Positions 1,102 through 34,189 of a stretch of 34,189 nucleotides of DNA are shown here, one piece after another. The position numbers were made by a program, and so were the translations under genes. The first letter of the stretch is position 1, and the number at the start of each line of letters is the position of its first letter. The stretch covers positions 1-34,189 of the forward strand of contig JAKITK010000033.1 of the NCBI GenBank assembly GCA_021648125.1, read 5' to 3'. A model generated the notes under the pieces. It was not told where the DNA came from. It saw only the letters and a program-made list of their open reading frames with translations, and ran no database searches. Source of the stretch: Lysobacterales bacterium (lineage in GTDB: Bacteria; Pseudomonadota; Gammaproteobacteria; Xanthomonadales; SZUA-36).

Positions 1102-3228
1102 TCAATCATCGCCTTGATTGGGATCAATTTCTTCTCCGGTTTCCTGATTAACAACTTTCATGGAAAGTTTAACTTTACCGCGATCATCGAAGCCCAGAAG
1201 CTTGACCTTTACCTTATCACCTTCATTGACAATGTCAGTCACTTTTCCAACACGTTGTGGTGCCAGTTGAGAAATATGAACCAGGCCGTCTTTGGGGCCA
1301 AAAAAGTTCACAAATGCGCCAAAATCGACAACTTTAACAACCACGCCGTCATAAATAACACCGGCTTCAGGTTCGTCCGTTATACTTTTGACCCACTTGA
1401 TAGCTGCTTCAATCGACTTGGCATCGCTGGAAGAAATATTGACGGTGCCATCATCTGTGATGTTGACTTTGGCTCCGGTTTCTTCAACGATCTGACGGAT
1501 AATCTTGCCGCCTGTGCCAATAACTTCGCGAATTTTATCCACGGGTATTTTAAGCGTTTCGATGCGCGGGGCATATTCGCCCATCTCTTCACGAGATTCG
1601 GTCAGGGCTTTTGCCATCTCACCCAGAATGTGCACCCGGCCGCCTTTGGCCTGATCGAGAGCAATCTGCATGATTTCTTCGGTAATCCCGGTGATCTTGA
1701 TATCCATCTGCAGCGAAGTGATACCTTCTTCAGTACCGGCCACCTTGAAGTCCATGTCGCCAAGGTGATCTTCATCGCCAAGGATGTCGCTCAGTACTGC
1801 AAAGCTATCGCCTTCTTTAATCAGGCCCATGGCAATACCGGCAACCGGTGCTTTAATTGGCACACCGGCATCCATTAATGACAATGAAGTACCACAAACG
1901 GATGCCATTGAGCTGGAACCGTTAGATTCGGTGATTTCAGATACAACCCGCAGTACATACGGGAATTCTTCAGCACTCGGCATTACTGCCATTACGCCAC
2001 GCTTAGCCAGTTTGCCGTGTCCGATTTCGCGACGCTTAGGGCCACTCATAAAACCGGTTTCGCCAACAGAGTATGGAGGGAAGTTATAGTGCAACATGAA
2101 AGGGTCTTTGTGCTCGCCTTCAACTGCATCGATAATCTGTGCATCGCGGGTTGTTCCCAGGGTAGTTAATACAATTGCCTGAGTTTCACCACGCGTGAAT
2201 ACGGCAGAACCGTGAACCCGTGGCATAGTGCCAACATTAACGGTAATTGGGCGAACGGTGGTTAAATCACGACCATCAATTCGTTTGGCTGTAGTTAATA
2301 CGCTCATGCGTACAAAGTTCTTTTCAACTTTCGAGAACAGATCTTTTACATCGCCTGGTGCTGGTGAATTTTCATCATCAGCATCGCAGAGCGCATCAAT
2401 ACAGGCTGAACGCGCTGTAGAAAGTGCCTCGCGACGATCCATTTTATCGGTAATAGTATAGGCAGCAGCGATGGAATCAGATGCGGCGTCTTCTACTTTC
2501 GCCAGCAAATCAGCATTGACTTCAGGAGCTGACCATACCCAGCGTTCTTTACCACACTCGGCAACCAGTTCGTTGATAGCAGTAATGGCGACCTGCATCT
2601 GCTCATGACCAAAGCTAACCGCGCCCAGCATGATAGATTCAGACAGCAGTTTGGCTTCTGATTCAACCATTAATACAGCGTTGGCTGTTCCGGCAACGAT
2701 CAAATCCAAATCAGACTCTTCCAACTGACTGGTTGAAGGGTTAAGCACATACTCTTCATTGATATAACCCACACGGGCTGCACCAATAGGGCCAGCAAAT
2801 GGTAGTCCGCCGACTGCCAAGGCAGCTGAGGCACCTATAAGTGCCAGGATATCGCCATTAACTTCAGGGTTGCACGACATCATCGTTGCAACAACTTGTA
2901 CTTCATTCAGAAAACCTTTCGGGAACAGCGGACGCAACGGGCGATCAATAAGCCGTGATGTCAGTGTTTCTTTTTCAGTTGGACGGCCTTCGCGTTTGAA
3001 GAAACCACCTGGAATACGACCGGCGGCATAGAATTTTTCCTGGTAGTTAACCGTTAATGGAAAAAAGCTTTGCCCTGGTTTGGCTTCACGCCGGCCTACA
3101 GCGGTTACCAATACTTTGGTATCTGCCGATGAAACCATAACTGCGCCATTTGCCTGACGGGCAATATCGCCGGTTTCGAGGGTGATTGTGTGTTCGCCGT
3201 ACTGAAATGTTTTAGTAAATTTTTGCAT
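1102..3228 (-). CDS. pnp: Polynucleotide phosphorylase
   Basis: This 708-aa protein is a full-length PNPase, the 3'-to-5' phosphorolytic exoribonuclease of the RNA degradosome. It contains two RNase PH-like domains (about residues 10-230 and 310-545) joined by a helical linker. A KH domain follows with the motif [12 protein letters not shown] near residue 565. A C-terminal S1 domain (about 620-690) carries [15 protein letters not shown]. The length matches the family. The ATG has AGGA six bases upstream. It lies downstream of rpsO with a hairpin in between, the standard rpsO-pnp arrangement. Several long plus-strand frames across it are antisense shadows. Confidence 0.98.
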
Positions 3229-3944: not shown

Positions 3945-4724
3945 ATGGCTTTTGACGAATTTGGCGTAAAGAGGGGACAACAAAGTAATAGTACAACACA
4001 TTTGAGCCTCAAAGCCATATACTCAGATATTGATATAACTGGAACACCTGAAATTATGTTTTTTAACAAAAAACCAAAATACCTTATAGCAACACCTACA
4101 AGCGCATACTATTTTACGCAGAATAATATGAGACAGTGGCAAAAGGATGTATTAACAAGGTTATTTTCTTTGCCAAAGAGTCCAGCATTGAATGATAAGA
4201 CCTTGTCAGCGTTATTTCTTACTAGTAATAGTGCGCAAATAGAATATAAACTCAATGAGTGTATCAAGCTGAAAATATTACAGATTGTTACTAAAGAAGT
4301 AGCCGCCCCGGCAGATCAGCTGGAAAACAACCTCAAGAGCTTAATTCAGGCTCTCTCACAAAAAGAAAAAGCGTTGTTATCTGACTCACAGGGGCTTTGT
4401 ATTGTTAACCACGGCTTTACAGACGCAATGAGTGAGGAAATATCAGCGTTATCAGTTGAAGTTGCCATTTTACACGGACGCCGGGCTGTTGGTATTTGCA
4501 CAAAGCTGAAGATTAATTCAAAAGCCTGGGCCATAACCGACATATCCGGTAAAAGTTGCCTGGGCTTCTGGCCGTTAGCCATTGGCGAGGAAGTGTTTGT
4601 TCTTGTGATTGAAGGCGAGCCAAGTTTGCAACACCCTGCTATGACTTCTTTGGTTTGGATGCTATATTCACGCTACGGGAAAAATAAGCGCAAGTCTAGA
4701 TGGCGCAGGCAAGGGCAAGCGTAA
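3945..4724 (+). CDS. Protein with winged-helix-like region and divergent Roadblock/LC7 domain
   Basis: This 259-aa protein is not one I can name. The C-terminal half (about residues 140-245) has the order of a Roadblock/LC7 domain: a strand with SDSQGLCIVNHG, a helix EEISALSVEVAILHGRR, a strand pair, then EEVFVLVI. It is divergent from the two typical Roadblock proteins in this window. Residues 85-120 (LTSNSAQIEYKLNECIKLKIL) resemble the recognition helix and wing of a winged-helix domain. There is no signal peptide and no membrane segment. The C-terminus is strongly basic (KNKRKSRWRRQG), which would suit nucleic-acid or membrane contact. The ribosome binding site before the ATG is weak. It is the first gene of accessory block 1, 700 bases ahead of the typical Roadblock gene. 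The LC7 assignment is an inference from pattern. Confidence 0.7.
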   Translation: MAFDEFGVKRGQQSNSTTHLSLKAIYSDIDITGTPEIMFFNKKPKYLIATPTSAYYFTQNNMRQWQKDVLTRLFSLPKSPALNDKTLSALFLTSNSAQIEYKLNECIKLKILQIVTKEVAAPADQLENNLKSLIQALSQKEKALLSDSQGLCIVNHGFTDAMSEEISALSVEVAILHGRRAVGICTKLKINSKAWAITDISGKSCLGFWPLAIGEEVFVLVIEGEPSLQHPAMTSLVWMLYSRYGKNKRKSRWRRQGQA

Positions 4725-4925
4725 GAAGCATACTCAATACCATCCCGCCTTCTATCTTTGGTCAAGCATAAATTTAGCCAGCTGACGCCTATAGTCAAAC
4801 TTTGACAAAATTAGTCACTTATTTAACACCAATCAACTCGAAGGTTCCTTCAACACCAACCATAAACTATTTAAAACTACGCTAGTCTATGCTAATCTCC
4901 AACATATTCGGCTTTGCTTAGATGA

Positions 4926-4941
4926 TGGCATGATAATTGCA
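4926..4941 (+). promoter_or_regulatory. Sigma-54 (RpoN) -24/-12 promoter candidate
   Basis: The sequence TGGCATGATAATTGCA has GG and GC dinucleotides exactly 12 bases apart and agrees with the TGGCAYG-N4-TTGCW consensus. Transcription would start near 4952, pointing toward the Roadblock gene with a leader of about 475 nt. I did not identify an enhancer site. Confidence 0.5.
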
Positions 4942-5361
4942 TTTTATTCTGTAGGTTTATCAAATATATCAGCTTTTGTGAAAGAGTATAATTTTACTAC
5001 TTCGGTGCGAGTATAGTACGCTCGCAAGCGATGGATGAATCTAAGCTAGTTTGAAGCTACTACAATCTGCAATCATTTCTACCGCAGGGGAAAGCAAAAC
5101 TGGTCAAGGAAGGAAGTGGCAGAGGTGAGAAATATACTGACCGAGCTAAGACTATGGTTAGTGTATAGTCAAGACAAGCTACACTAGTTCAAAGGTAATG
5201 AAAAGGTAATAAATTAACCGTTGCTGGTTGAGTGCTTTGTAGTACCACTGACAATAGTGTCTGCCACATATCAGGTATGGATACCCGATATTGCCAGAAG
5301 ATTAAAAAAACAAAGCTACGGCAAAATCGCTGTGCAAAGTAAAAAAATAACTTAATGTATA

Positions 5362-5378
5362 GCGATACTATATATCGC
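5362..5378 (+). other. Leader hairpin 1 before the Roadblock gene
   Basis: GCGATA and TATCGC form a 6-bp stem around a CTATA loop, 50 bases upstream of the start codon at 5429. Confidence 0.4.
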
Positions 5379-5390
5379 ATCTTGTATTTT

Positions 5391-5409
5391 TCATCGGATA
5401 CACCGATGA
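5391..5409 (+). promoter_or_regulatory. Leader hairpin 2 next to the Roadblock ribosome binding site
   Basis: TCATCGG and CCGATGA form a perfect 7-bp stem around ATACA. It ends eight bases before the AGGAG (5417-5421) that serves the ATG at 5429. The position suits control of translation or mRNA stability. Confidence 0.45.
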
Positions 5410-5428
5410 ATATTTTAGGAGTAGGGTC

Positions 5429-5791
5429 ATGCGTACAGAAATGTTAGATAATGTATTAAACGAATTAAATAGTTCCTCAGCTGATGTAGAAGCTTCAGCT
5501 ATCATTTCTACCGATGGATTGGTAATGGCAGCGCAACTACCATCCTCAGTTGATGAGGATGGCGTAGGTGCAATGAGTGCTGCAATGCTATCACTGGGTG
5601 ATAGAACAGCCCAGGAATTATCCAGGGGTGACTTGGACCAAGTATTGATTAAAGGCGGCAGTGGGTATGTTTTAATGGTAAGAGCTGGTGATGATGCTGT
5701 GTTAACACTAATGGCAAAAGCTAACGCCAAGTTAGGCTTGATTTTTCTTGATGTAAAACGAGCTGCAAAGAAAATATCTGAATTAATCTAA
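5429..5791 (+). CDS. Roadblock/LC7 domain protein (MglB-like)
   Basis: This 120-aa protein is a single Roadblock/LC7 domain. The family includes MglB, the GTPase-activating partner of the polarity GTPase MglA, and the CvnB proteins of actinobacterial conservons. Visible elements are the first strand AIISTDGLVMAAQL, the helix VGAMSAAMLSLGDRTAQEL, the strands QVLIKGGSGYVLMVRAG and AVLTLMAKANAKLG, and a C-terminal helix. There is no signal peptide. The start is fixed by AGGAG seven bases upstream. The protein at 16900-17262 is a clear paralog of the same length, with GDLxQVLI followed by GYVLMV or GFVILV in both. No GTPase lies in this block, so its partner is probably the GTPase encoded at 19740-20291. 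It precedes the PAS gene by 18 bases and is probably co-transcribed with it. Confidence 0.9.
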   Translation: MRTEMLDNVLNELNSSSADVEASAIISTDGLVMAAQLPSSVDEDGVGAMSAAMLSLGDRTAQELSRGDLDQVLIKGGSGYVLMVRAGDDAVLTLMAKANAKLGLIFLDVKRAAKKISELI

Positions 5792-5809
5792 TCTACAAAG
5801 GGCTCTACA

Positions 5810-6268
5810 ATGACTAAAGTGCAAATTAATTACCATGATGGCTCCCAGAGTGAAAAGACTCTGACTGATGAAGAGATCCCATTTCCAGAGGGCAAATTAA
5901 TTGTCTCGCGTACTGATATCGACGGAATCATTACGCACTGCAATCAAGCCTTTGTAGAGATGTCCGGTTTCGAGATGGGTGAATTAACCGGAAAACCTCA
6001 TCACATTCTACGCCACCCTGATATGCCTAGTGCGGCTTTCAAAGATCTATGGGATACCGTAAAAAACCAAGGAAAGAAGTGGCGTGGATATGTCAAAAAC
6101 CTGAGAAAAGATGGCTCTTTTTACTGGGTATATGCCGTTGTTGTTCCTAATGTGCGCGACGGCAAAACTGTTGGTTTTGCTTCAATTAGAAGAAAACCCT
6201 CAAGAACCAAAATTAAAGAACTAACCGAGATCTACAAGGACATGTTGGCAGAGGAGAAAAAAGCATGA
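5810..6268 (+). CDS. Stand-alone Aer-type PAS domain protein
   Basis: This 152-aa protein is a single PAS domain of the Aer aerotaxis-receptor type with short tails and no output domain. In Aer this domain binds FAD and reports redox state. The residues important for FAD binding in Aer have counterparts here: N45 in THCNQAF, R68, H69 and D71 in RHPDMP, F77, W81, W91 and N97 in YVKN. FYWVYAVVVPNVRDGK closes the fold. The last 25 residues are charged and helical. There is no membrane segment, so it should be a soluble sensor. Its final codons overlap the start of the next gene by four bases (ATGA), which implies translational coupling and joint action with the PhnD-like protein. FAD binding is an inference from these residues. 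Confidence 0.9.
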   Translation: MTKVQINYHDGSQSEKTLTDEEIPFPEGKLIVSRTDIDGIITHCNQAFVEMSGFEMGELTGKPHHILRHPDMPSAAFKDLWDTVKNQGKKWRGYVKNLRKDGSFYWVYAVVVPNVRDGKTVGFASIRRKPSRTKIKELTEIYKDMLAEEKKA

Positions 6269-7011
6269 CTTACACAATGACGGTAAGCCCCGATTTCTCA
6301 CCTGACTACATCGCTGGCTGGTATATTTTTAATACCTGGCTACAGAAAAAGACCGGTGATGGTATCCACCTGGAACTTTATGATTCATTTGATTTACAAA
6401 GAAAAGATATTATTGATGACAAAATAGATATTATCTTTGCAAATCCTTATGAGGCTGCCATGTTAATCCGGGAAAAGGGTTTTTTAGCGATTGCAGCACC
6501 GGCAGATAAGCCAGATGAGGCTGTGATTTGTGTCAAAGATGATTCCGATATTCAATCTGTTGAGGATTTAAAAGAAAACTGCACCATCGCCATGGCGGAT
6601 GATCCACAGGTTAATAGTGTGGGTATGATTATGCTTGAACCTGCTGACTTAAGCGTAAAAAATATAACCATAGAAAAACAAAAGAACTATGTGCTGGTTG
6701 CTAAAAACCTTATCAACGAGAGCGCAGATGCAGGCTTTTTCCTACTGGATGCCTATGATGACATGTCTAAATTCGTCAAAAGCCAAATCAGGCCAATTAT
6801 TACTAGCCAAATATCTGTGATTCGACATATTTTCCTGGTCGGCCCAAAATTATCGAATAAGGCTGAAGATATTAGGGGGTTACTCAACGATATGCACAAC
6901 GAAGATAAAGGCCTGAAGATCCTGCAGTCACTCGGTTTTGAGTCATGGGAAAACCAAACCCAAGAAGACTCAGAGTTTATGTTAGACCTGATAGACACAT
7001 TGTCAGGCTGA
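6265..7011 (+). CDS. Cytoplasmic PhnD/type 2 periplasmic-binding-fold protein
   Basis: This 248-aa protein has the fold of substrate-binding proteins of the PhnD/phosphonate-type family. Features are the opening strand TYTMTVSPDFSPDYIAGWY, the hinge segment IDIIFANPYEAAMLIREKG (compare the DxxxxxPxxY segment of PhnD proteins), IQSVEDLKENCTIAMADD and SADAGFFLLDAYDDM. It lacks a signal peptide or lipobox, and no ABC permease is nearby, so transport is unlikely. It probably works as a ligand-sensing or partner domain in the cytoplasm. It starts inside the end of the PAS gene, so the two products may form a sensor pair. The ligand is unknown. Confidence 0.8.
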   Translation: MTYTMTVSPDFSPDYIAGWYIFNTWLQKKTGDGIHLELYDSFDLQRKDIIDDKIDIIFANPYEAAMLIREKGFLAIAAPADKPDEAVICVKDDSDIQSVEDLKENCTIAMADDPQVNSVGMIMLEPADLSVKNITIEKQKNYVLVAKNLINESADAGFFLLDAYDDMSKFVKSQIRPIITSQISVIRHIFLVGPKLSNKAEDIRGLLNDMHNEDKGLKILQSLGFESWENQTQEDSEFMLDLIDTLSG

Positions 7012-7059
7012 GTATTGGGAATTCCTTAAATAAAAAGGTTCATGACAGTACATAGCACC

Positions 7060-7089
7060 AGCTCTTGATCCCACTGTGAAACCAATATC
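7060..7089 (+). repeat. Copy 1 of a 30-nt element shared by both accessory blocks
   Basis: This stretch matches 15845-15874 at 27 of 30 positions and includes the identical run GTGAAACCAATATC. Weaker similarity continues about 60 bases downstream on both copies, ending in AGGGT...AATTT. Here it lies between the PhnD-like gene and the pseudo-receiver gene at 7230, in noncoding DNA. Confidence 0.6.
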
Positions 7090-7229
7090 ATGCGCTCAGT
7101 ATCCGTCAGAACCTACGCATCCAAGTAGGGTTAACTAATTTGTGATTGGAAGCCCATAAATAAAATGGTAGCATGGATCATGTTGTTAGAAATTTAACAC
7201 TCAATAGAAAAACTAAAAAAGAGTAAAAC

Positions 7230-8402
7230 ATGAATGTATCATCTAAATTACAAGTTGGTTTAAAAGACTTAGACAACATCACTAGGGCCTCATTGAGATA
7301 TTTCTTTAACTCCGGTTTATGCCCTAATGCTGAGTTATGTAAGATCAACAAGGAGGCCGAACTACTGATACTAGACCATAGTCCTAATATCACTAAAGAT
7401 TTCCTTGAAACCTTAGAAAACCATAATAAATATGCCATCATACTGCATGCGCCGACAGAAGAGTTTATTGATGGCACAGGCGAAAACCGCCTTTTTGGCC
7501 TGGTAAAGCCAATACAACAGAATGACTTAAAAAAGGTTATTGATAAGATATTCAAACTCGTCAAACCAGTGGAAGAAAACCTAACAACTGTAACAATACC
7601 AAAAATCACGCGAGGTTCTGACAGCCAGAACCTTAATACAGCCACTACCAGTTACGGTAACTCAGGTTCAGCGTTAAGCCCTGACAACAGCAATAACCCG
7701 GCAAGCGGTGATCTCGAATCGCACCACCGGTTTAAACTGCGTAAATACATAGGTTCTAACGAGGATGTAGACTTAGACGACCCCAGTAACTTAAGACAAA
7801 TATATATTACGCCAGAGAAATACCTATACCATTATTTATCCAAAGCTATAAATGTGGCAAAGTTCAGTAAGACGGATGTGATCATCACAACCACTGCTGG
7901 CAGAGTTTTATATGAGCTCAGCAGTCAGAACTTTTATTGTTTTGATTGGAGTAAGCTGAAGCATGCTCAAGCTAACCCAACATTTAATGATACCAAGCTA
8001 GCGCAGGTTGGCCCTAACTCCGACTTAGTCAATACTGCTGCTCTAAACGCCACAGAAATAGTCTGGGAAGCTGCGCTACTTGCCAGCAAAGGCCGCTTAC
8101 CTGCGGGCACAAGCCTAACGAATGAGATAGGAATAATTTACTGGCCGGATTTATCAAAATTAACTGTATTTGAGCATGTAGACCAAATAGTCGCTACTTG
8201 GGCACTAAACCCAATATCGATAGGCGCTACCACCAAACAGCTGAAAATACCACAAAGGTATGTATTTACATTATTTTGTGCCATGCGCGCAATAAGCAGT
8301 GTGTATGTTGAATCAGACGAAAGTGCTGTTGAGGACTCCCCTAAGGCAAGTAAGAAGAGTTTGTTGTCTAAATTATTTGGTAATATTGCAATCCACCCGT
8401 AA
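7230..8402 (+). CDS. Pseudo-receiver protein with C-terminal helical/winged-helix domain (paralog of 20291-21499)
   Basis: This 390-aa protein matches no family I can name. Residues 5-113 read like a degenerate response-regulator receiver: AELLILDHS at the phospho-acceptor strand, YAIILHAP at strand 4, and FGLVKPIQQNDLKKVIDKIF, where the K-P and last helix normally sit. The acidic pocket is incomplete, so phosphorylation is doubtful. A Ser/Asn-rich linker follows (about 125-170). The C-terminal half (about 190-370) matches the protein at 20291-21499 in order and motifs: LPAG then IIYWPDLSKL here, LPEG then LLNTWPNFTQY there. Both then have a helix-turn-helix-like segment (QIVATWALNPISIGATTKQLKI). 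There is no signal peptide or membrane helix. The role is unknown. As one paralog sits in each block, a scaffold or adaptor for the GTPase/Roadblock proteins is a reasonable guess. Confidence 0.75.
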   Translation: MNVSSKLQVGLKDLDNITRASLRYFFNSGLCPNAELCKINKEAELLILDHSPNITKDFLETLENHNKYAIILHAPTEEFIDGTGENRLFGLVKPIQQNDLKKVIDKIFKLVKPVEENLTTVTIPKITRGSDSQNLNTATTSYGNSGSALSPDNSNNPASGDLESHHRFKLRKYIGSNEDVDLDDPSNLRQIYITPEKYLYHYLSKAINVAKFSKTDVIITTTAGRVLYELSSQNFYCFDWSKLKHAQANPTFNDTKLAQVGPNSDLVNTAALNATEIVWEAALLASKGRLPAGTSLTNEIGIIYWPDLSKLTVFEHVDQIVATWALNPISIGATTKQLKIPQRYVFTLFCAMRAISSVYVESDESAVEDSPKASKKSLLSKLFGNIAIHP

Positions 8403-15946: not shown

Positions 15947-16870
15947 TTAATTATTTGAACAGTTATTACAACAGACCTCACCAGTGCGCAGATGGTAACT
16001 TACCTCCAGACCAGTTTCAATTTCATTATTGCAAATATCACAGATCCCGCCCATATCAAGAACTATTTTTCCAAACCCCGATGCTGGTGTCTCAATATCG
16101 CCCACCATACGCCCCCTTGGCTTGTCCTTTAGAATATCGGGCCGATAAAGCTCTTCAAGCTGTTGCCATTTGTGAATCATTTTTTCACTGAGTCCATGCT
16201 TACGCATGTAGTGCTCCAGTAAATTTTCTCTATGTTCAAATACACTGTTATTGATCACCATCCAATGGTGTGCATTACGAGGGCGGTCTCCAAAGTAAAT
16301 TTCTTCTCCGGTAAAAACACGACGATAAAAAGAATAAACCTTCTCCTTGGCCCGCTGTTTGGTTGAGTTTTTGAAATAAGGTGAAAGAATAGGATCTATG
16401 AATACTGCATCATAAAATTCATTCAGAATTTCATGAAGCAGCTCGCCATTATTTAATGCAGCCCATAGTTCAGGAATTGGTGAAGGATAAGCAACCTCTT
16501 CTGTTTGTTTATTACTTTTAGTAATGCTTTTTAAAGATTGGTCCTCGGATTTTGAATCCCAAGATTCATTTTTCTTATCACTAACTACTGCCGTATTTAT
16601 AAAGTCTGCATCTTGCCGTTCCTCAATAACCAGATCAGTAACGGGATTACATTTGCAAGGTAGAAAATAATTTTTTTCTACTAGCCAATTGTTTAATCCC
16701 TTTTGACTTTCTTCACTTACTTCGCCCACTACTGCCCGAACCAAACAGGTTTGGCAAACACCATTCCGGCAGGAAAATGCTACATCAACTCCATTTCTTA
16801 AAAGAGTATCCAAAACTGTCTCATCATTTTGGTGTTGGTAGGTGTTATTGTTAAATGTCAAATTAACCAT
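15947..16870 (-). CDS. Ferredoxin-globin-zinc ribbon fusion protein
   Basis: This 307-aa protein fuses three modules. Residues 1-85 are a plant-type [2Fe-2S] ferredoxin with ligands C34, C39, C42 and C72 (CX4CX2CX29C). After a charged Ser/Lys linker (about 90-128), residues 133-247 resemble a truncated-type globin: FYDAVFIDPILSPYF in the B/E region and GDRPRNAHHWM, where H201 aligns with the proximal haem histidine. The C-terminus (274-307) has CX2C-X20-CX2C (C277, C280, C301, C304), a zinc-ribbon-like knuckle. There is no membrane segment or signal peptide. The architecture suggests a soluble electron-transfer or gas sensor. No reductase domain is attached. It is the last gene of block 2, 29 bases after the Roadblock gene. 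I chose ATG 16870, with AGG 12 bases upstream. A TTG at 16879 would add three residues. Confidence 0.85.
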   Translation of the reverse strand: MVNLTFNNNTYQHQNDETVLDTLLRNGVDVAFSCRNGVCQTCLVRAVVGEVSEESQKGLNNWLVEKNYFLPCKCNPVTDLVIEERQDADFINTAVVSDKKNESWDSKSEDQSLKSITKSNKQTEEVAYPSPIPELWAALNNGELLHEILNEFYDAVFIDPILSPYFKNSTKQRAKEKVYSFYRRVFTGEEIYFGDRPRNAHHWMVINNSVFEHRENLLEHYMRKHGLSEKMIHKWQQLEELYRPDILKDKPRGRMVGDIETPASGFGKIVLDMGGICDICNNEIETGLEVSYHLRTGEVCCNNCSNN

Positions 16871-16899
16871 ATAAATCAAATGCCTATTAGAGCAATATG

Positions 16900-17262
16900 C
16901 TATAGTAAGTCAGCAATTTCTCGTGCAGATAACCTAGCCTCATGCAATAACATTCCAAGCCTTGAATCAAACGCCGAAATAATTGACAGCACGGCATTAT
17001 TACCAACACCCACCAAGATTACAAAACCCCCAGTTCCATGAATCAAAACCTGCTGTAAATCACCCTTAGACATATCCTTAAGTGCTCTCTCTGCTAGAGA
17101 TAATAACGAGGCCGATATAGCACTCAAGGTGCCAGAGTCCATCTCTGCATCCATTCTTGAAACCAAGGGCATACCATCACGAGTCATCACTGCCACTGCC
17201 TCTATCTGACTAGACTTGCTGATAAGCTTAGTTAATATTGATTTTATTTTATCTTTTTCCAT
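16900..17262 (-). CDS. Roadblock/LC7 domain protein (MglB-like), paralog of 5429-5791
   Basis: This single-domain Roadblock/LC7 protein of 120 aa has AVAVMTRDGMPLVSRM, the helix LSAISASLLSLAERAL, and GDLQQVLIHGTGGFVILVGVG. It matches the block 1 protein along its whole length and in exact size. I chose ATG 17262 because GGA lies eight bases upstream and because the length then equals the paralog. A GTG at 17289 would add nine residues without family support. Roadblock proteins of this type act on small GTPases as activators, dimerisation platforms or adaptors. The GTPase in the same operon is the obvious partner. A near-palindrome around CCATGG lies just upstream. Confidence 0.9.
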   Translation of the reverse strand: MEKDKIKSILTKLISKSSQIEAVAVMTRDGMPLVSRMDAEMDSGTLSAISASLLSLAERALKDMSKGDLQQVLIHGTGGFVILVGVGNNAVLSIISAFDSRLGMLLHEARLSAREIADLL

Positions 17263-17338
17263 TCTAATTTCCGACCTCGCCAAGGCCACCCATGGATGGC
17301 CGATGAGGATATACCCCTGTTAGTTCATTATTATTTTG

Positions 17339-17926
17339 TTAGAGTGCTGCTTCAAGAAGTGGTAGTATTCGGCGCGCTTTGGTTAACACAATCCCCTGGT
17401 TAACAGATTTACGACAGACAAAGGTAACAATGTAGTTATTGTATTTGTTACCACGCAAAAACACATGTAACAAATTATTACTGAGAATGAGTATTTCCTG
17501 AAAATAGTGAAGGTTTTCATCTTCAATACCGCGTGATTTTTTGAAAGTAGTTTCAATCGCAAGCACATTTTCACCCTGGAATAAATCGGCGGTTGCAGCT
17601 GCCAGCATATCCATCACTTCCATTGGATGTGACTTCACTGTTTTTACAGCCAATAGCATACCGGTTTCAAGATCAATGTAGCCCGCAGCAAGACATTCAG
17701 GAATTTCGTTAACTGCCCTCTGAAGTAGCTCCTCGAGCGTCTCCCCTGTGGGCACGCTTGGGTCAGCAGCAGCTTCAGCTTGCGTTTTTGTGTTAGTAGT
17801 ATCTGCTACATTAACTTCAGATTTATTAGTGGACGCCACTATGTTTTTTGATTCACCACCAATATTCACGCTACTGGAATTTTTAAAAATACCAGTAAAT
17901 AATGTTTTTATTTTATCTATATTCAT
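17339..17926 (-). CDS. LC7-fold protein with N-terminal extension, paralog of 17992-18399
   Basis: This 195-aa protein has a low-complexity N-terminal extension (about residues 17-65, rich in Ser, Asn, Thr and Ala) and a C-terminal domain of about 130 aa. The domain is strongly similar to the neighbouring 135-aa protein: IPECLAAGYIDLETGMLLAVKTV, a helix MEVMDMLAAATADLFQG, HYFQEILILSNNLLHVFLRG and YIVTFVCRKSVNQG. Strand and helix order fits the Roadblock/LC7 fold, but I do not recognise the family by name. The extension may be a tether or localisation tail. The pair probably arose by tandem duplication and could form a heterodimer, as Roadblock proteins often do. Confidence 0.75.
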   Translation of the reverse strand: MNIDKIKTLFTGIFKNSSSVNIGGESKNIVASTNKSEVNVADTTNTKTQAEAAADPSVPTGETLEELLQRAVNEIPECLAAGYIDLETGMLLAVKTVKSHPMEVMDMLAAATADLFQGENVLAIETTFKKSRGIEDENLHYFQEILILSNNLLHVFLRGNKYNNYIVTFVCRKSVNQGIVLTKARRILPLLEAAL

Positions 17927-17937
17927 ATTTTAAAACT

Positions 17938-17970
17938 GTCGCCGATCGTTCACTTTAAATAATCGGCGAC
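17938..17970 (-). other. Intercistronic hairpin between the two LC7-fold genes
   Basis: GTCGCCGAT and ATCGGCGAC form a perfect 9-bp stem with a 15-base loop between the stop at 17992 and the start at 17926. On the minus strand it is followed by AGTTTTAAAA, a weak U-tract. It could be a partial terminator or an RNA-stability element that lowers expression of the last three genes relative to the first four. Confidence 0.5.
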
Positions 17971-17991
17971 AAGTTAGCTCCAAATTGTTTT

Positions 17992-18399
17992 TTAAAGAGC
18001 AGCTTCCAGATTAGGCATAACCATGCGTGCCTTAGTGAGTGCCATACCCATATTGACTGATTTACGGCAAACAAAAGTTACAATATGATCCCCATAGTTT
18101 TTGCCGCGAATAAATATATGAAGTAAATTGTCACTCATAACAAGCATTTCCTGAAAGTAATGCAGATCACTATCTTTAATGCCGCGTGCTTTTTTAAAAA
18201 CATCTTCAATGGCGATTACATTTGGGCCCTGAAACAAATCAGATGTTGCTGCTGCTAACAAATCCATCACCTCACTAGGGTGTGAATCTACCGTTTTTAC
18301 TGCCAGCATCATGCCTGTGCTGATATCAACATATCCTGCAGCAAGGCATTCTGGAATTGTACTAATTGCTTTTTGAAGTTCATTATCGAGTGTTGCCAT
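17992..18399 (-). CDS. LC7-fold protein, short paralog
   Basis: This 135-aa protein is close to the C-terminal domain of its neighbour at 17339-17926 and lacks the extension. Shared segments include IPECLAAGYVDISTGM, EVMDLLAAATSDLFQG, HYFQEMLVMSDNLLHIFIRG and IVTFVCRKSVNMGMALTKAR. I chose ATG 18399 because AGGAG (18412-18408) sits eight bases upstream. Frames that begin farther upstream overlap the phosphatase gene without support. The AGGAG lies within the last codons of the upstream gene and only four bases separate the two frames, so translation should be coupled. A scaffold or regulator for the GTPase or the ATPase-phosphatase is plausible but not shown. Confidence 0.78.
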   Translation of the reverse strand: MATLDNELQKAISTIPECLAAGYVDISTGMMLAVKTVDSHPSEVMDLLAAATSDLFQGPNVIAIEDVFKKARGIKDSDLHYFQEMLVMSDNLLHIFIRGKNYGDHIVTFVCRKSVNMGMALTKARMVMPNLEAAL

Positions 18400-18403
18400 A
18401 GTT

Positions 18404-19738
18404 CTATCTCCTAGGTGGGATGGTAAATAAGGGCTTCTTCTTATGGACCCTTGTGGTAAAAACATAAAATGTGGATATAAAATCTTCTTGTACGCTAGAC
18501 TGTATCATACGTGGGTCCTGGCAACGAACTTTTGTTATCGCCTCACCTGCATCCAAACCAGTGAAGATTAAATAACAAGCTAATAATGTACCCGTTCGTC
18601 CAAGCCCAGCTTTACAATGGACTGCTATCGTGTTTCCATTATCTATTAGCAAGCCCATTCGTTGAATCATTTCAACAGTTTCATCAATTTTTGGTACCTG
18701 CATATCTACAATTGGCATTAGCAATAAACCAATATCGTATTGCTTGATAGTCTCAGCTGGATAATGGCAATGCTCTTCCAAAGAAATCAGGTAATTTACA
18801 TTGACTTTTTTTAGCGCCAGCATATCTTCATCAAGACTTCGGCTTAACCCTGGTCGTGGCATAGATGCCAACTTCCCACGCAACAACCAACGAAAACCAC
18901 TTGGTCCAAAAGGAATCAGTTTAGGTTTTTCGAATGGCAAAGTGACCGGCACATACTTCTGTAAATACTCTGGGTCAAGGTCTTCAACTAGTGTGTCCGG
19001 AGCAGGAACCATGCAGGTACCTGTACGGACAAAATCTTTTCCAGCTTCCGACTCTGCTGCGTTTAAAAATGAGTCGGTAGTTTTGCACTCTTGGATACGG
19101 CCGCCTGCGACAAATATTATGTTGCCCCCAAGCTCGCGCGCTTGATTTTGATTATGAAGAATAACGAGGACTGCATATTTTTTTGATATGCAGCTTATTA
19201 CAGCAAGAATTTCTGCAGCCTGCTCAGCACTCAGATCCGCAGTTGGTTCATCTATCATCAATAACGGCGGTGAATTTATCACAGCACTCATAATCGAAAT
19301 TATTCGCTGTGTCATCAGTGGTAGTTCTGTTATTTGCTTGTTCAGTGATCCCTTGATGTATGAAACTCCATATAGATCAAGCATTCGGCAGGCGAGTGCA
19401 GATTGCTGTTGACGGTCCAATGTGTTTCGTCTTTCAAGCCTGTGAATAATGTTGTCCAGCACAGAAGATACCATCAACTTCGGCTTTTGCTGTACCAGAA
19501 TTGGTCGCCCAAGGGTCCCTAAAAGCTCGCCCAGATAGTGCACATCACCCGTCGAAAGAAACCAAGAAGATGCATCGTTGTGCCCTGAAAGTGATCTTAG
19601 TAGTGTAGATTTTCCAGTACCGCAAGGACCCATTATTATCGTTACACCTTGATCGTCCAAGTCAAGATTAAGGCCAACGAGAATTTGACGTTTTCCAAAG
19701 CTTACACAGTAATCACGTAATGAAAGTATCGTATTCAT
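18404..19738 (-). CDS. ABC-type ATPase fused to a dual-specificity-like protein phosphatase
   Basis: This 444-aa protein joins two enzymes. Residues 1-235 are an ABC ATPase with Walker A GPCGTGKST (37-45), Q-loop near Q83, Walker B LLMIDE (159-164) and H-loop H195. The signature loop is degenerate: ITELPLMTQR (136-145) replaces LSGGQxQR. Residues 280-425 are a Cys-based phosphatase with the loop HCKAGLGRTG (374-383, nucleophile C375, R381) and a likely general acid D345 in PIVDMQVP, as in the CDC14-like/dual-specificity group. No permease gene is near, so it is probably not a transporter. It may couple ATP binding to dephosphorylation of a protein, nucleotide or lipid. The ATG comes one base after the GTPase stop codon (TGA-T-ATG) with almost no ribosome binding site of its own, so it depends on coupled translation. 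Confidence 0.9.
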   Translation of the reverse strand: MNTILSLRDYCVSFGKRQILVGLNLDLDDQGVTIIMGPCGTGKSTLLRSLSGHNDASSWFLSTGDVHYLGELLGTLGRPILVQQKPKLMVSSVLDNIIHRLERRNTLDRQQQSALACRMLDLYGVSYIKGSLNKQITELPLMTQRIISIMSAVINSPPLLMIDEPTADLSAEQAAEILAVISCISKKYAVLVILHNQNQARELGGNIIFVAGGRIQECKTTDSFLNAAESEAGKDFVRTGTCMVPAPDTLVEDLDPEYLQKYVPVTLPFEKPKLIPFGPSGFRWLLRGKLASMPRPGLSRSLDEDMLALKKVNVNYLISLEEHCHYPAETIKQYDIGLLLMPIVDMQVPKIDETVEMIQRMGLLIDNGNTIAVHCKAGLGRTGTLLACYLIFTGLDAGEAITKVRCQDPRMIQSSVQEDFISTFYVFTTRVHKKKPLFTIPPRR

Positions 19739-19739
19739 A

Positions 19740-20291
19740 TCAGCGTTTTAATGACAAAGAGGGGTCAATGCGATAAATCAGTGTTTTTACCAGCGTACGC
19801 ACCATATCGCTATTTCTGGCATCTAAAGTGAACACGGGTATAGTGCTATCAGGTGTTTTTTTAAGAAAATTTCGGTAATCAGGCAAACTAGGAGTATCTT
19901 TTACATCCGTAAATGTGATGCCAACAACAATACTCCGGGTCTGCATATGCGCGGAAAATGTCTTCAGGTAGCGGTCAAGCTGGTCCAGTGGGCTCTCAGT
20001 GGCATTGTTTATCAAAATAATCACACCTAGCGCACCCTCCCCAAGAATCTCCCGCATGAACTCAAAGCGTTCCTGCCCAGGGGCTCCATAGAGTTGGATG
20101 GAAGTCGTTTCATCGAGATTCATACGACCATAGTCCATCCCCACAGTTGTTTTTCTCTTCAGGTGCCGGGTTTCATCGGTTGCTATTTCTTCTGTCTGAA
20201 ATGGCTCAATATCACTAACAGCATGAATTGACGTGCTTTTACCGGCACCGACAGAGCCTGCAAAAATAATTTTAAGCTGTGGTAGTTCCAC
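19740..20291 (-). CDS. Ras-like small GTPase (MglA/conservon type)
   Basis: This 183-aa single-domain GTPase has P-loop GSVGAGKST (12-20), switch I TTVGMDYG (48-55) and G3 YGAPGQERF (68-76), with Gln at the catalytic position. The G4 position has TFTD (126-129) instead of NKxD; related bacterial GTPases that pair with Roadblock proteins use a T-x-x-D type motif, so this may be a family trait rather than decay. There is no lipidation site or membrane segment. It starts with GTG at 20291, overlapping the previous gene's stop by one base (TAGTG). Its place beside Roadblock genes suggests a molecular switch controlled by them. It is the only GTPase of this kind in the window. Confidence 0.92.
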   Translation of the reverse strand: MELPQLKIIFAGSVGAGKSTSIHAVSDIEPFQTEEIATDETRHLKRKTTVGMDYGRMNLDETTSIQLYGAPGQERFEFMREILGEGALGVIILINNATESPLDQLDRYLKTFSAHMQTRSIVVGITFTDVKDTPSLPDYRNFLKKTPDSTIPVFTLDARNSDMVRTLVKTLIYRIDPSLSLKR

Positions 20292-21499
20292 TATTTGGTA
20301 TGCCTAAGTTTGGTTAGCATTTTACGGAATATGGTTCTCATCTTCACATTTTTATTTGTTTTTTCCAAAACAAGCTCATTCTTAATATCATTCTTAGCGA
20401 TATCCAGAAAATCACACAGGTAACAGCTAGTCACGAAAGCAGCCAATTCCTTGATAGAGAGGCCAAATAGTTTCGCTAATTCATTTATTGATGCTGGCTG
20501 AGTTACCCAATAGCTTGTCACGGCCAAGAACACAGAGGCTGAGTTATACTGCGTAAAATTTGGCCATGTATTCAATAAAATCTTTTTGTCCTGAGAAAGC
20601 CCCTCTGGAAGGGCCTCCCCAGCGACAAGCGGTGAGATAAGCCATAGAAGATCTTCGATAGAAAGTGATAACTTTTCCTTTAAAACAAATTTTGCCTGTT
20701 CACTTGTAGATAGTACACGCACGGGAATTTCTTTTATCGGCATGACAGTCAGATGGGGTAAAACCCTCTTACTAACATTGGATTTGATGGATTTTTGGCT
20801 CTCATCAACTAAAAGCCACATATCACCCCACTCAAAGAGTTTAATTTTGCCTGAATGTTTTTCTGTAATCACATCTGCCAAATACCCTACGAGATAGCCA
20901 GATGGTGAAAAACGAGCTCTTTTATTAGTTATATGAATAACATTGCCAGGTTTAGTTTTGTTTAAACTGTTTGCTATTTTCGCTCGTCTTTTTGATACAG
21001 GCTTTGCTCCCGAGCGCTTTACTTTAGTCCCTTTTTTAACTCGCGAAACAGTATTCTTAGCTGTTTGTCTGACCGCCTCCTCTATTACCTGCAATATATC
21101 GTCTTCGTAGACCTCACTGGAGCTTACTTTTTCGGCTTTTTCGGCTTTTTCGGCTTTTTCAAGCCTCTCGCTTTCAATTTTTCCAGAAGTTGTTCCCCCA
21201 GTCTGTTTTTCTTCCACTGCGAGAATCAAATTTAACAAAGCTGTGAATTTTACTGGCTTTTCAATTAACAGCGCCTCACCTGGCAAGGCCATAGATGAAA
21301 CAAGTATCGTGGGAAACCCCAGCTTATCGCGAACCTTCTGCCAAGCATCAGCCGGATAGGAATCCACAAAAAGAATTCCTACATCAGCTTCAGATTTTGA
21401 GCTTAAACGACAAGTATCCTGAGCACGATTTTCAAGCGCTATTGCTAGCGCGCGAATATCCGTCTTATTCTTGCTGATAAGACTTATGTTAACTGTCAA
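20291..21499 (-). CDS. Pseudo-receiver protein with C-terminal winged-helix-like domain (paralog of 7230-8402)
   Basis: This 402-aa protein is the first gene of block 2. Residues 1-95 look like a degenerate receiver: VNISLISKNKTDIRAL, then DVGILFVDSYP where the phospho-acceptor strand would be, TILVSS, and LLIEKPVKFTALLNLIL with the conserved K-P. A Lys/Glu-rich linker with an EKA triplet repeat follows, then a basic stretch (about 150-185). Residues 190-385 match the block 1 paralog, including LPEG, TWPNFTQY and a helix-turn-helix-like segment SYWVTQPASINELAKLFGL. The start is TTG at 21499, preceded by GGGAAGGG. An in-frame stop lies two codons upstream, so no longer start is possible. It may link the GTPase to a sensor or to DNA. 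I cannot name the family. Confidence 0.75.
   Translation of the reverse strand: MTVNISLISKNKTDIRALAIALENRAQDTCRLSSKSEADVGILFVDSYPADAWQKVRDKLGFPTILVSSMALPGEALLIEKPVKFTALLNLILAVEEKQTGGTTSGKIESERLEKAEKAEKAEKVSSSEVYEDDILQVIEEAVRQTAKNTVSRVKKGTKVKRSGAKPVSKRRAKIANSLNKTKPGNVIHITNKRARFSPSGYLVGYLADVITEKHSGKIKLFEWGDMWLLVDESQKSIKSNVSKRVLPHLTVMPIKEIPVRVLSTSEQAKFVLKEKLSLSIEDLLWLISPLVAGEALPEGLSQDKKILLNTWPNFTQYNSASVFLAVTSYWVTQPASINELAKLFGLSIKELAAFVTSCYLCDFLDIAKNDIKNELVLEKTNKNVKMRTIFRKMLTKLRHTK
21131..21160 (-). repeat. Nine-base tandem repeat in the linker of the pseudo-receiver gene
   Basis: Three perfect copies of TTCGGCTTT (plus-strand reading) and a partial fourth encode Glu-Lys-Ala repeats. Copy-number change would shorten or lengthen the linker by three residues without a frameshift. 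Confidence 0.85.
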
Positions 21500-33233: not shown

Positions 33234-34189
33234 GTAAGCGGTTAATAAACACCGCCCTTTCTCAACCACCCCGGATCTGATCCATGTTGATATTGCCCGG
33301 CAGCAATGCCTCGATGGCTTCCACTGTTTCTGCTTTCGGTAACTCGGTAAACACATACCGCAGATAAGCATACGGTTCCAAGCCATTGGCCTTGGCCGTT
33401 TCGATTAGCGAGTACAGGTTGGCACTGGATTTAACCCCTTTGACCGAAGTACTGAACAACCAGTTTTTCCGTCCCAACACGAACGGTCGGATGGCATTTT
33501 CAGCACCGTTATTGTCGATCTCTAGGCGGCCATCTTTCAGATAAGCGGTCAACTGCTGCCATTCGTTGTGCAGATAGCTCAGCGCCTTGCCGGTAGCACT
33601 CGATGGCGGTATCTGTGGCAGGGTGTCCTCCAGCCAGCTGCGGATTTCTTTTATGATCGGCACCGCCTGTTGCTGGCGCATACTATAGCGTTCTTCTACT
33701 GTCAGTTTACGCGCCAGGGTTTCAACCCGATACAACCTGCGGATTAACGATAAGCCCCGATGCGCCTTGCCGCGCTTCTTATTGCGGCCCTGGGCTTTTA
33801 CAGCATCACTAAATCGCCGCCGGGCATGTGCCATGCAACCCACATGCACCAGCCCATTGGCGGCAACGACTGCATTGTAGCCAGCATAACCATCGGTTTG
33901 CAGATACCCGCTAAAGCCTTCCAATAAGCGTTTGGGTACTTGCGCACTGCGCCCGGGATCGTAGTCATACAGGATAACCGGCTTTGCCGGTGGACCGCCG
34001 CGTTGTAACCAGATATAGGATTTTGATTGTGCTCGTTTGTCCGGTTCTTTCAGTACCTGTACCGGGGTTTCATCCATCTGGATGATGTCGTAATCCAACA
34101 TTTGATCGCGTAGCAGGTTAATCAGTGGCTGGATCAGCATCCCTGAACGGATCATCCAGTTCGATAGTGTCGCACGGGGTATTTCTACA
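33234..34189 (-). mobile_element. IS66-family insertion sequence (transposase-proximal end only)
   Basis: The element reaches the window edge, so only one end is seen. The end begins with GTAAGCGGTTAATAAACACC at 33234, consistent with the GTAAGCG ends of IS66 elements. The adjacent CATGTTTT (33226-33233) would be one copy of the expected 8-base target duplication. Confidence 0.7.
33262..34189 (-). CDS. IS66-family transposase (TnpC, 5' end outside window)
   Basis: This is the C-terminal 308 codons of an IS66-type DDE transposase, open to the window edge. The reading frame continues upstream of the internal ATG at 34155, where EIPRATLSNWMIRSGM is typical family sequence, so that ATG is not the start. 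Catalytic residues are visible: first Asp in DETPVQVL, second Asp in LQTDGYAGYNA, and the final Glu in IDNNGAENAIRPFVLGRKNWLF. The C-terminus ends in LLPGNINMDQ. No frameshift is visible. IS66 elements also encode TnpA and TnpB accessory proteins, which would be beyond the window. Confidence 0.93.
   Translation of the reverse strand, partial: VEIPRATLSNWMIRSGMLIQPLINLLRDQMLDYDIIQMDETPVQVLKEPDKRAQSKSYIWLQRGGPPAKPVILYDYDPGRSAQVPKRLLEGFSGYLQTDGYAGYNAVVAANGLVHVGCMAHARRRFSDAVKAQGRNKKRGKAHRGLSLIRRLYRVETLARKLTVEERYSMRQQQAVPIIKEIRSWLEDTLPQIPPSSATGKALSYLHNEWQQLTAYLKDGRLEIDNNGAENAIRPFVLGRKNWLFSTSVKGVKSSANLYSLIETAKANGLEPYAYLRYVFTELPKAETVEAIEALLPGNINMDQIRGG

Follow-up and report, generated by a model that had tools for sequence, protein, structure and literature searches.

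The window, by which we mean the whole stretch of 34,189 nucleotides analysed here, belongs to a genome assembled in 111 contigs (96% complete) and carries on its minus strand an operon of co-directional, tightly spaced genes, the last of which encodes a ferredoxin-globin protein. The features are given one per line, with the evidence for each in brackets.

15947..16870, minus strand: ferredoxin-globin-zinc ribbon gene, 307 aa, last gene of the operon (open reading frame and translation, Ka/Ks)
16601..16870, minus strand: plant-type [2Fe-2S] ferredoxin module, residues 1-90, with Cys34, 39, 42 and 72 (Pfam Fer2, fold, cysteines)
16475..16600, minus strand: linker, residues 91-132, the site of the missing reductase (alignment; pLDDT <50 at 106-120)
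16121..16474, minus strand: group 1 truncated haemoglobin module, residues 133-250, with Tyr153 (B10), Phe166 (CD1), Lys177 (E10) and His201 (F8) (Pfam, PDB profile, fold)
15953..16048, minus strand: probable zinc ribbon, CxxC-x20-CxxC, residues 275-306, Cys 277-304 (conserved cysteines)
16900..17289, minus strand: Robl3, a Roadblock/LC7 (MglB-like) protein, directly upstream of the globin gene (Pfam Robl_LC7, 1.5e-11)
17339..17926, minus strand: second member of the RoblA family (profile match; 218.9 bits to the RoblA model)
17992..18465, minus strand: RoblA, predicted Roadblock fold; limits are those of the open reading frame and the start probably lies inside (AlphaFold model, pLDDT 77.6)
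18404..19738, minus strand: fusion of an ABC-type ATPase and a dual-specificity phosphatase (Pfam ABC_tran 1.7e-12, DSPc 1.4e-11, PTP-SAK 4.2e-18)
19740..20291, minus strand: small GTPase with Group 3 MglA-like motifs: GAPGQ, G4 TFTD without Lys, G5 DAR (Pfam ATP_bind_1, Ras)
20291..21499, minus strand: first operon gene, 402 aa, positioned where Group 3 MglA systems have their receiver-like/winged-helix protein (excerpt of PMC4316618)
3945..8402, plus strand: detached second cluster of p3945, Robl_LC7 (5363-5788), PAS, phosphonate-binding-like and p7230 genes (profile matches)

The original prediction had placed a plant-type ferredoxin, a truncated-type globin and a CX2C/CX2C knuckle in one 307-aa protein at the end of a GTPase operon, and all of these elements were recovered. 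The open reading frame at 15947-16870 was confirmed and lies on the minus strand, the plus-strand frame being closed by many stops; in an alignment with the 526-aa orthologue P0001 its ATG at 16870 coincides with that protein's start, and the gene comes last, after the GTPase and Roadblock genes. The protein runs from a plant-type [2Fe-2S] ferredoxin through a linker and a group 1 truncated haemoglobin to a CxxC/CxxC tail. An AlphaFold model built with 62 sequences (61 of the 80 loci described below and the window protein) reached a mean pLDDT of 89.3 and a pTM of 0.61, with pLDDT below 50 only at residues 106-120; given the modest pTM and the low-confidence linker, this model speaks to the single modules and not to their relative placement. 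Comparison of the gene with its same-genus orthologue gave Ka 0.14 and Ks 1.5 for the ferredoxin, Ka 0.12 and a saturated Ks for the globin, and Ka 0.16 and Ks 1.2 for the tail. As Ka is far below Ks in all modules, the gene is kept under purifying selection, part of this divergence perhaps predating the loss of a reductase discussed below. No plasmid record covering 80% of the query was found in a search for plasmid-borne copies.

The N-terminal module matched Pfam Fer2 above the cut-off (3.1e-12, residues 10-76) and produced sub-threshold NCBIfam matches to BenC and MmoC. Its part of the AlphaFold model aligned with [2Fe-2S] ferredoxins at a Z of about 13-14, and the CX4CX2C...C motif and ferredoxin fold that characterize Fer2 are both present in the window protein, which is predicted to bind a [2Fe-2S] cluster. 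At the other end of the protein, C277, C280 and C304 were invariant and C301 and H293 nearly so in 62 aligned rows. The C-terminal CxxC-x20-CxxC found no Pfam match above the cut-off; compared with treble-clef/FYVE-like fingers, it shows four conserved cysteines and weak profile matches to FYVE domains (best 4.6e-4). Since the fold comparison scarcely covered the tail, we claim no fold for the probable zinc ribbon. Support for the predicted ferredoxin and globin modules thus comes from Pfam, PDB comparison and AlphaFold, and for the tail from its conserved cysteines.

The globin module matched Pfam Bac_globin above the cut-off (1.6e-6, residues 144-231), and a profile built on the globin and tail of six members found group 1 truncated haemoglobins as its best PDB matches (3aq5 at 5.2e-13). 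Superposition of the globin part of the AlphaFold model on Mycobacterium tuberculosis trHbN (1s56) gave a Z of 16.6 and 1.6 A over 117 residues, and the 2/2 globin fold, His F8, Tyr B10 and Phe CD1 of trHbN are all found in the window globin. Helix positions (B10, CD1, E10, F8) were assigned by us from the profile alignment with group 1 globins, in which H201, the first histidine of AHHWM, aligns with the F8 histidine of the group 1 AHxxM motif. The module is predicted to bind haem, with H201 as the putative ligand.

To place the protein among its relatives, we scanned genomes for the patterns N[AS]HHWMV or PELW.. and kept the best 80 of 130 relatives; these 80 loci, the window protein and three further members made up the 84 rows that were classed by architecture, and a larger, largely overlapping set comprised 88 rows. 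H201, whose loss from homologues had been named as a ground for rejecting the original prediction, was kept in 84/84 and 88/88 rows, counts that are biased because the scan pattern N[AS]HHWMV includes this residue; a fairer count comes from searching 370 genomes of the class with a profile (the class being, to judge by named relatives, Gammaproteobacteria taken broadly), and this search recovered seven family members, all of which keep HHWM. Two of these seven (the window protein and G047) had contributed to the profile, and another two nearly duplicate loci from the pattern scan; the members scored about 228 bits and more versus 84 for the next globin. A single-gene oddity can therefore be rejected, as the family is present in 80 named loci (the best 80 of 130 relatives) and in 7/370 sampled genomes. 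Within the family, Tyr B10 and Phe CD1 occur in 88/88 rows and Lys E10 in 87/88. H202 and W203 (F9 and F10) are likewise present in 88/88 rows versus 0/23 ordinary truncated globins from the same search, taken together without classing by group, and the His F9-Trp F10 pair is likely a signature of the family. Lys E10 was also considered as a signature and rejected: it occurs in 12/23 of the ordinary truncated globins too, which makes it weak as evidence by itself. At position E11 the window protein has Val, as do 18 other rows, and Gln is found there in 66/88 family rows and in 23/23 ordinary globins.

Inspection of the relatives revealed that many carry a reductase between ferredoxin and globin. 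The same-genus orthologue (genome G003, on a contig matching QIKG01000105.1 of Oceanospirillales bacterium SZUA-51 at 100%) has 526 aa, is 72% identical to the window protein and bears FAD_binding_6 and NAD_binding_1 domains at this place, and members from four genomes of other families in the same order align with it across all four modules. Relative to this orthologue, the window protein lacks about 220 aa of reductase in frame (an offset of 219 residues), and a short (a)gaaaaa run lies close to each of the two break points. Across the family, a full-length reductase match (class F) was found in 47/84 rows, and in 49/88 of the larger set; class F includes L100 and L102, in which the reductase was detected and the ferredoxin was not. 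Twelve rows (class H, 12/84) have a stretch of 101-134 residues in place of the reductase, 6/12 matching the reductase profile and the other 6 having been placed by stretch length and alignment. At most a linker separates ferredoxin and globin in class S (11/84 rows, and 12/88 of the larger set), neither ferredoxin nor reductase was detected in class N (12/84), and two rows at contig edges (L089, L094) were labelled uncertain. The flavin motif RxY[ST] is absent from 12/12 H rows; in F rows the flavin motif positions are kept in 45-46/47, and the flavin and nicotinamide positions together (RxYS, GTG) in 45-47/47. The class N proteins (L037, L046 and 10 others) are globin-tail proteins of about 200-300 aa, 9/12 of them in Myxococcota or Acidobacteriota.

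Cys34, Cys39 and Cys42 are kept in 67/68 ferredoxin rows (F 44/45, H 12/12, S 11/11) and Cys72 in 68/68, the single F row without the first three being probably L066, which is cut at a contig end. The CxxC..CxxC pattern occurs in 86/88 family rows, the exceptions being L088, whose frame is broken ahead of the tail, and L095, in which one pair is missing; among the 80 loci the tail follows the globin in 79, again with L088 as the exception. As to the proposed check on whether homologues keep the three modules, these are often conserved; in class N the ferredoxin is not detected. The view of a globin paired with a ferredoxin alone applies to the window protein and 11 other rows of 88, and does not extend to the 49/88 that possess the full FAD/NADH reductase.

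On the 88-row tree (12 S rows), the distribution of the reductase-less form requires 6 changes, at least 4 of them forced by well-supported branches, and a single origin of this form was rejected (AU test, p 2.3e-5). The window protein is sister to its reductase-bearing orthologue (100/96), and both stand beside the F row L028 (98/87). For the second family tree, L093 (a long branch) was left out, the bootstrap values were not yet stable, and near-copies make up at least two row pairs (L036/L109 and L054/L112). The tree alone gives no direction; because the window protein is nested among reductase-bearing rows and H rows exist, the simplest reading is that the reductase-less form would have arisen by loss of the reductase. 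Genes of the S type also occur in the named strains Marinobacter guineae M3B, M. orientalis W62, M. salexigens HJR7 and Pseudomaricurvus sp. HS19, and the Marinobacter clade of the reductase-less form is supported at 100/99. The idea that the window genome had gained a reductase anew was considered and rejected; a search of this 96% complete genome for one family, FAD_binding_6, gave a single match, a 351-aa ferredoxin-FAD protein on contig C109. The reductase-bearing G003 also has a 363-aa open reading frame with a ferredoxin match.

The genes upstream of the ferredoxin-globin gene resemble a known class of bacterial GTPase systems. In Group 3 systems, MglA is accompanied by a receiver-like/winged-helix protein and by one or two MglB proteins (excerpt of PMC4316618). 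The window GTPase has the G4 motif without Lys and the G5 DAR described for this group in the same source, and its G3 motif, GAPGQ, is one substitution from GTPGQ, which Groups 2-5 have in common (10 aligned rows: GTPGQ 7, GAPGQ 3); on the strength of these motifs it resembles Group 3 MglA. The likeness to the systems of PMC4316618, as excerpted, extends to the Roadblock partners and to a preceding protein without a Pfam match, the 402-aa product of the first operon gene having none that was significant; the difference is that the window operon adds the ABC-ATPase/phosphatase, RoblA and the globin, and the words globin, ferredoxin and phosphatase are absent from the main text of that paper. 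Robl3 keeps an Asp-Gly pair that is invariant in 10 aligned rows. No Pfam family matched RoblA. Because its sequence-profile link to Robl3 is weak (hhalign probability 17.8%), its fold was predicted; the AlphaFold model has the Roadblock fold and aligned with MglB at a Z of 14.7 and 2.7 A over 123 residues. The two RoblA-family genes stand in tandem (17339-17926 and 17992-18465), and two consecutive RoblA matches were also seen in L027, L028 and L075. A search of the window for structured RNA or tRNA found none; promoter-like sites (19 versus 15.7, sd 4.1, in shuffles) show no excess, and terminator-like sites numbered 12 versus 5.2 in shuffles.

The surroundings of the operon differ between the window and its closest relative. 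The operon (15947-21499) has moved, with different flanks in the window and in G003 (locus L022): in G003 it is flanked by genes that we take to be pnp and an OmpW-like gene, and in the window it lies behind what, judging from the translations, is presumably rimP-nusA-infB-rbfA-truB. The window gene at 1102-3228, which from its translation we also presume to be PNPase, is 91% identical to G003 in its 5' part, gave no DNA alignment in its 3' part, and has a counterpart in G003 whose frame is split into two overlapping open reading frames. An open reading frame on the minus strand at 33262-34155 resembles an IS66-type transposase. The second cluster at 3945-8402 may belong to the same system as the globin operon; p3945 directly follows the globin gene in 11/71 relatives.

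We then determined how faithfully the globin gene and its neighbours stay together. Among loci with more than 6 kb of upstream DNA, the GTPase was found no more than 6 kb away, to either side of the globin gene, in 22/30 F, 3/9 H, 7/7 S and 0/8 N loci; Robl3, among loci with enough upstream DNA, was found within 1.5 kb in 21/37 F, 3/10 H, 7/9 S and 1/11 N loci. Conservation of a Roadblock neighbour, which had been proposed as a check, was found in part: RoblA is present within 6.5 kb in 55/76 loci with enough DNA and absent there in 21/76. Neighbour counts for the ABC-ATPase and PAS proteins are inflated by unrelated members of these big families and were therefore left unused. A RoblA profile search of the 370 genomes gave matches above 200 bits in 10 and matches at E up to 1e-8 in 27, the sameness of the 370 genomes across the three profile searches being read from genome handles. 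All 7 genomes with the globin family are among the 10 RoblA genomes above 200 bits (hypergeometric 6.7e-13, with kinship ignored and the cut-off set post hoc), and in 6/7 the two genes share a contig at a distance of about 2 kb or less, whereas in G047 they are on different contigs. The remaining 3 of the 10 RoblA genomes have no globin-family member. The GTPase gave matches at E up to 1e-15 in 76/370 genomes, including all 7 globin genomes, and most of the 76 have no globin. The GTPase being commoner than the globin, the latter is an optional member of a broader signalling system, in which its closest tie is to RoblA.

The classical chimeric globins combine a 3/3 globin with a reductase (flavohaemoglobins) or an output domain (globin-coupled sensors). 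Fusions of truncated globins to monooxygenase-like domains also exist, so truncated haemoglobin chimeras as such are not new. Flavohaemoglobins share with the reductase-bearing relatives a haem globin joined to an FNR-type reductase; here, by contrast, the globin is 2/2 and of group 1, not 3/3, the reductase of the relatives is N-terminal to the globin, and a ferredoxin and a zinc ribbon are added. The N-terminal 3/3 globin followed by an FAD/NAD reductase that defines flavohaemoglobins is not seen in the window protein, in which no FAD/NAD domain was found, nor does this protein resemble a globin-coupled sensor, with its 3/3 sensor globin at the N-terminus and an output domain fused at the C-terminus, as its own 2/2 globin lies mid-protein and no known output domain was found. 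With a full FAD/NADH reductase in 49/88 rows, the family is better viewed as a truncated-haemoglobin counterpart of flavohaemoglobin that is reductase-less in some lineages. The Fer2-FAD-NAD order of oxygenase reductases of the BenC/MmoC/T4moF type equals the N-terminal half of the reductase-bearing members; these reductases are without globin or zinc ribbon, however, and the window protein has the ferredoxin only. The nearest solved sequence to the window globin is Chlamydomonas THB1 (4xdi, E 1e-5), which shares His F8 and Tyr B10 and, as published, Lys E10 (excerpt of PMC7082302), but is a single-domain protein without ferredoxin or zinc ribbon; from group 1 truncated haemoglobins at large the family differs in its HHW motif, absent from all 23 ordinary truncated globins compared. 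HGbRL of Methylacidiphilum infernorum also links a globin to a Roadblock and has a Lys E10 able to bind haem, yet it is one polypeptide whose globin belongs to another group, whereas the Roadblock proteins of the window are separate neighbours (excerpt of PMC4476040). A globin census names, in the part available, only flavohaemoglobins and globin-coupled sensors as chimeric classes (PMC1457004), the words ferredoxin, fusion, fused, multidomain and chimeric are all absent from the main text of a survey of truncated haemoglobins (PMC4720485), and among the matches listed in a search of the open-access literature there was no account of the ferredoxin-globin architecture or of the operon.

The conserved haem pocket, the retained Fe-S site and the operon context together suggest a redox- or gas-responsive regulator, and gene order and co-occurrence make signalling from the ferredoxin-globin protein to a Roadblock protein or the GTPase plausible. 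We therefore lean, with somewhat less than even confidence, towards a haem protein that responds to redox state or gas and feeds the MglA/Roadblock-like GTPase system of its operon. In such a scheme the ferredoxin-globin protein would be a cytosolic redox haem protein acting as a regulatory input to that system. The commoner form of the family would be a self-sufficient chain from NADH through FAD and the [2Fe-2S] cluster, ending at the haem of a group 1 truncated haemoglobin, behind which comes the zinc ribbon; with the FAD/NADH module lost, the [2Fe-2S] domain of the window protein would need an outside electron donor or would sense redox itself. The haem would be held by His201 (F8), and Lys177 (E10) may ligate the resting iron as in THB1 and HGbRL: Lys E10 is the sixth haem ligand of THB1, THB2 and THB4 (excerpt of PMC7082302), and in HGbRL, a globin fused to Roadblock/LC7, it binds haem in the closed form with Lys E10-His coordination (excerpt of PMC4476040). 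An E10 ligand can also aid electron transfer (excerpt of PMC11904497). O2, NO or oxidation might then displace Lys177 and shift helix E, and this shift could be read by an operon partner, most likely the adjoining Roadblock protein, so that the GTPase cycle would be altered; in this scheme we infer the lysine ligation, the identity of the ligand, the Roadblock contact and the direction of the signal. A bolder version, in which the haem and [2Fe-2S] module directly gates a bacterial Ras-like GTPase, such that a truncated haemoglobin freed several times from its own NADH reductase became the oxygen, NO or redox input of a Group 3-like MglA/Roadblock pathway, strikes us as less likely than not.

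The main rival of the regulator is an enzyme, a nitric-oxide dioxygenase (or a globin handling nitrite or peroxide) that protects the cell and with which the operon merely co-expresses a signalling system; we give it a real, if minority, chance. Here the reductase-bearing members would be self-sufficient truncated-haemoglobin counterparts of flavohaemoglobin and the window form would use a separate reductase, for which the ferredoxin-FAD protein of the window genome is a possible electron donor. M. tuberculosis GlbN has high NO dioxygenase activity (excerpt of PMC7082302), and Legionella glbN shares an operon with a ferredoxin reductase, FNR-type partners of truncated globins being discussed in the same source, which also describes a raphidophyte nitrate reductase carrying a truncated haemoglobin (excerpt of PMC3820574). 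The invariant Tyr B10 and the Gln E11 of 66/88 rows fit an enzyme, although the window protein, like 18 other rows, has Val at E11; the RxYS and GTG positions, kept in 45-47/47 F rows, look like those of working enzymes and as such count against the regulator. So do the many GTPase genomes without globin, the 3/10 RoblA genomes without it, the 0/8 N and 3/9 H loci with a nearby GTPase, the 21/76 loci without RoblA, and the presence of three Roadblock-type proteins in the window versus one or two in published Group 3 systems (PMC4316618, as excerpted). Against the enzyme stand the frequent linkage to a GTPase/Roadblock operon, which a detoxifying enzyme does not need, and the at least 4 changes between reductase-bearing and reductase-less forms. 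Such repeated origins fit a role in which NADH turnover is dispensable, and they count against an autonomous enzyme, not against an enzyme fed in trans.

Two further explanations touch the operon and the gene itself. The protein could be an electron-transfer accessory that maintains a redox partner of the phosphatase/GTPase complex in its reduced state, or the ribbon and ferredoxin could form a docking platform with the globin in a structural role; this would accord with Fe-S and tail cysteines conserved about as well as the haem site and with a tail behind the globin in all loci except the broken L088, but the near-invariant core residues of the haem pocket imply a working haem site, and we consider it improbable. 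That the short form is a decaying, broken copy of the reductase-bearing gene, or a deletion produced by assembly, is highly improbable: despite the 111 contigs and the (a)gaaaaa run near both break points, the reductase is absent in frame and at module borders, Ka is well under Ks in all modules (partly, perhaps, for reasons older than the loss), and the same architecture is found in other genomes, including Pseudomaricurvus sp. HS19 and the named Marinobacter strains with their well-supported clade.

The family thus joins a 2/2 globin to a ferredoxin and a probable zinc ribbon, and most of the relatives seen add a complete NADH reductase. It often accompanies a small-GTPase/Roadblock operon, and we found no description of that operon's input. 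The repeated reductase-less origins, with Fe-S and haem sites kept, would offer a natural experiment on whether such a protein serves as enzyme or sensor, and the input of such bacterial GTPase systems would become testable in named Marinobacter strains.
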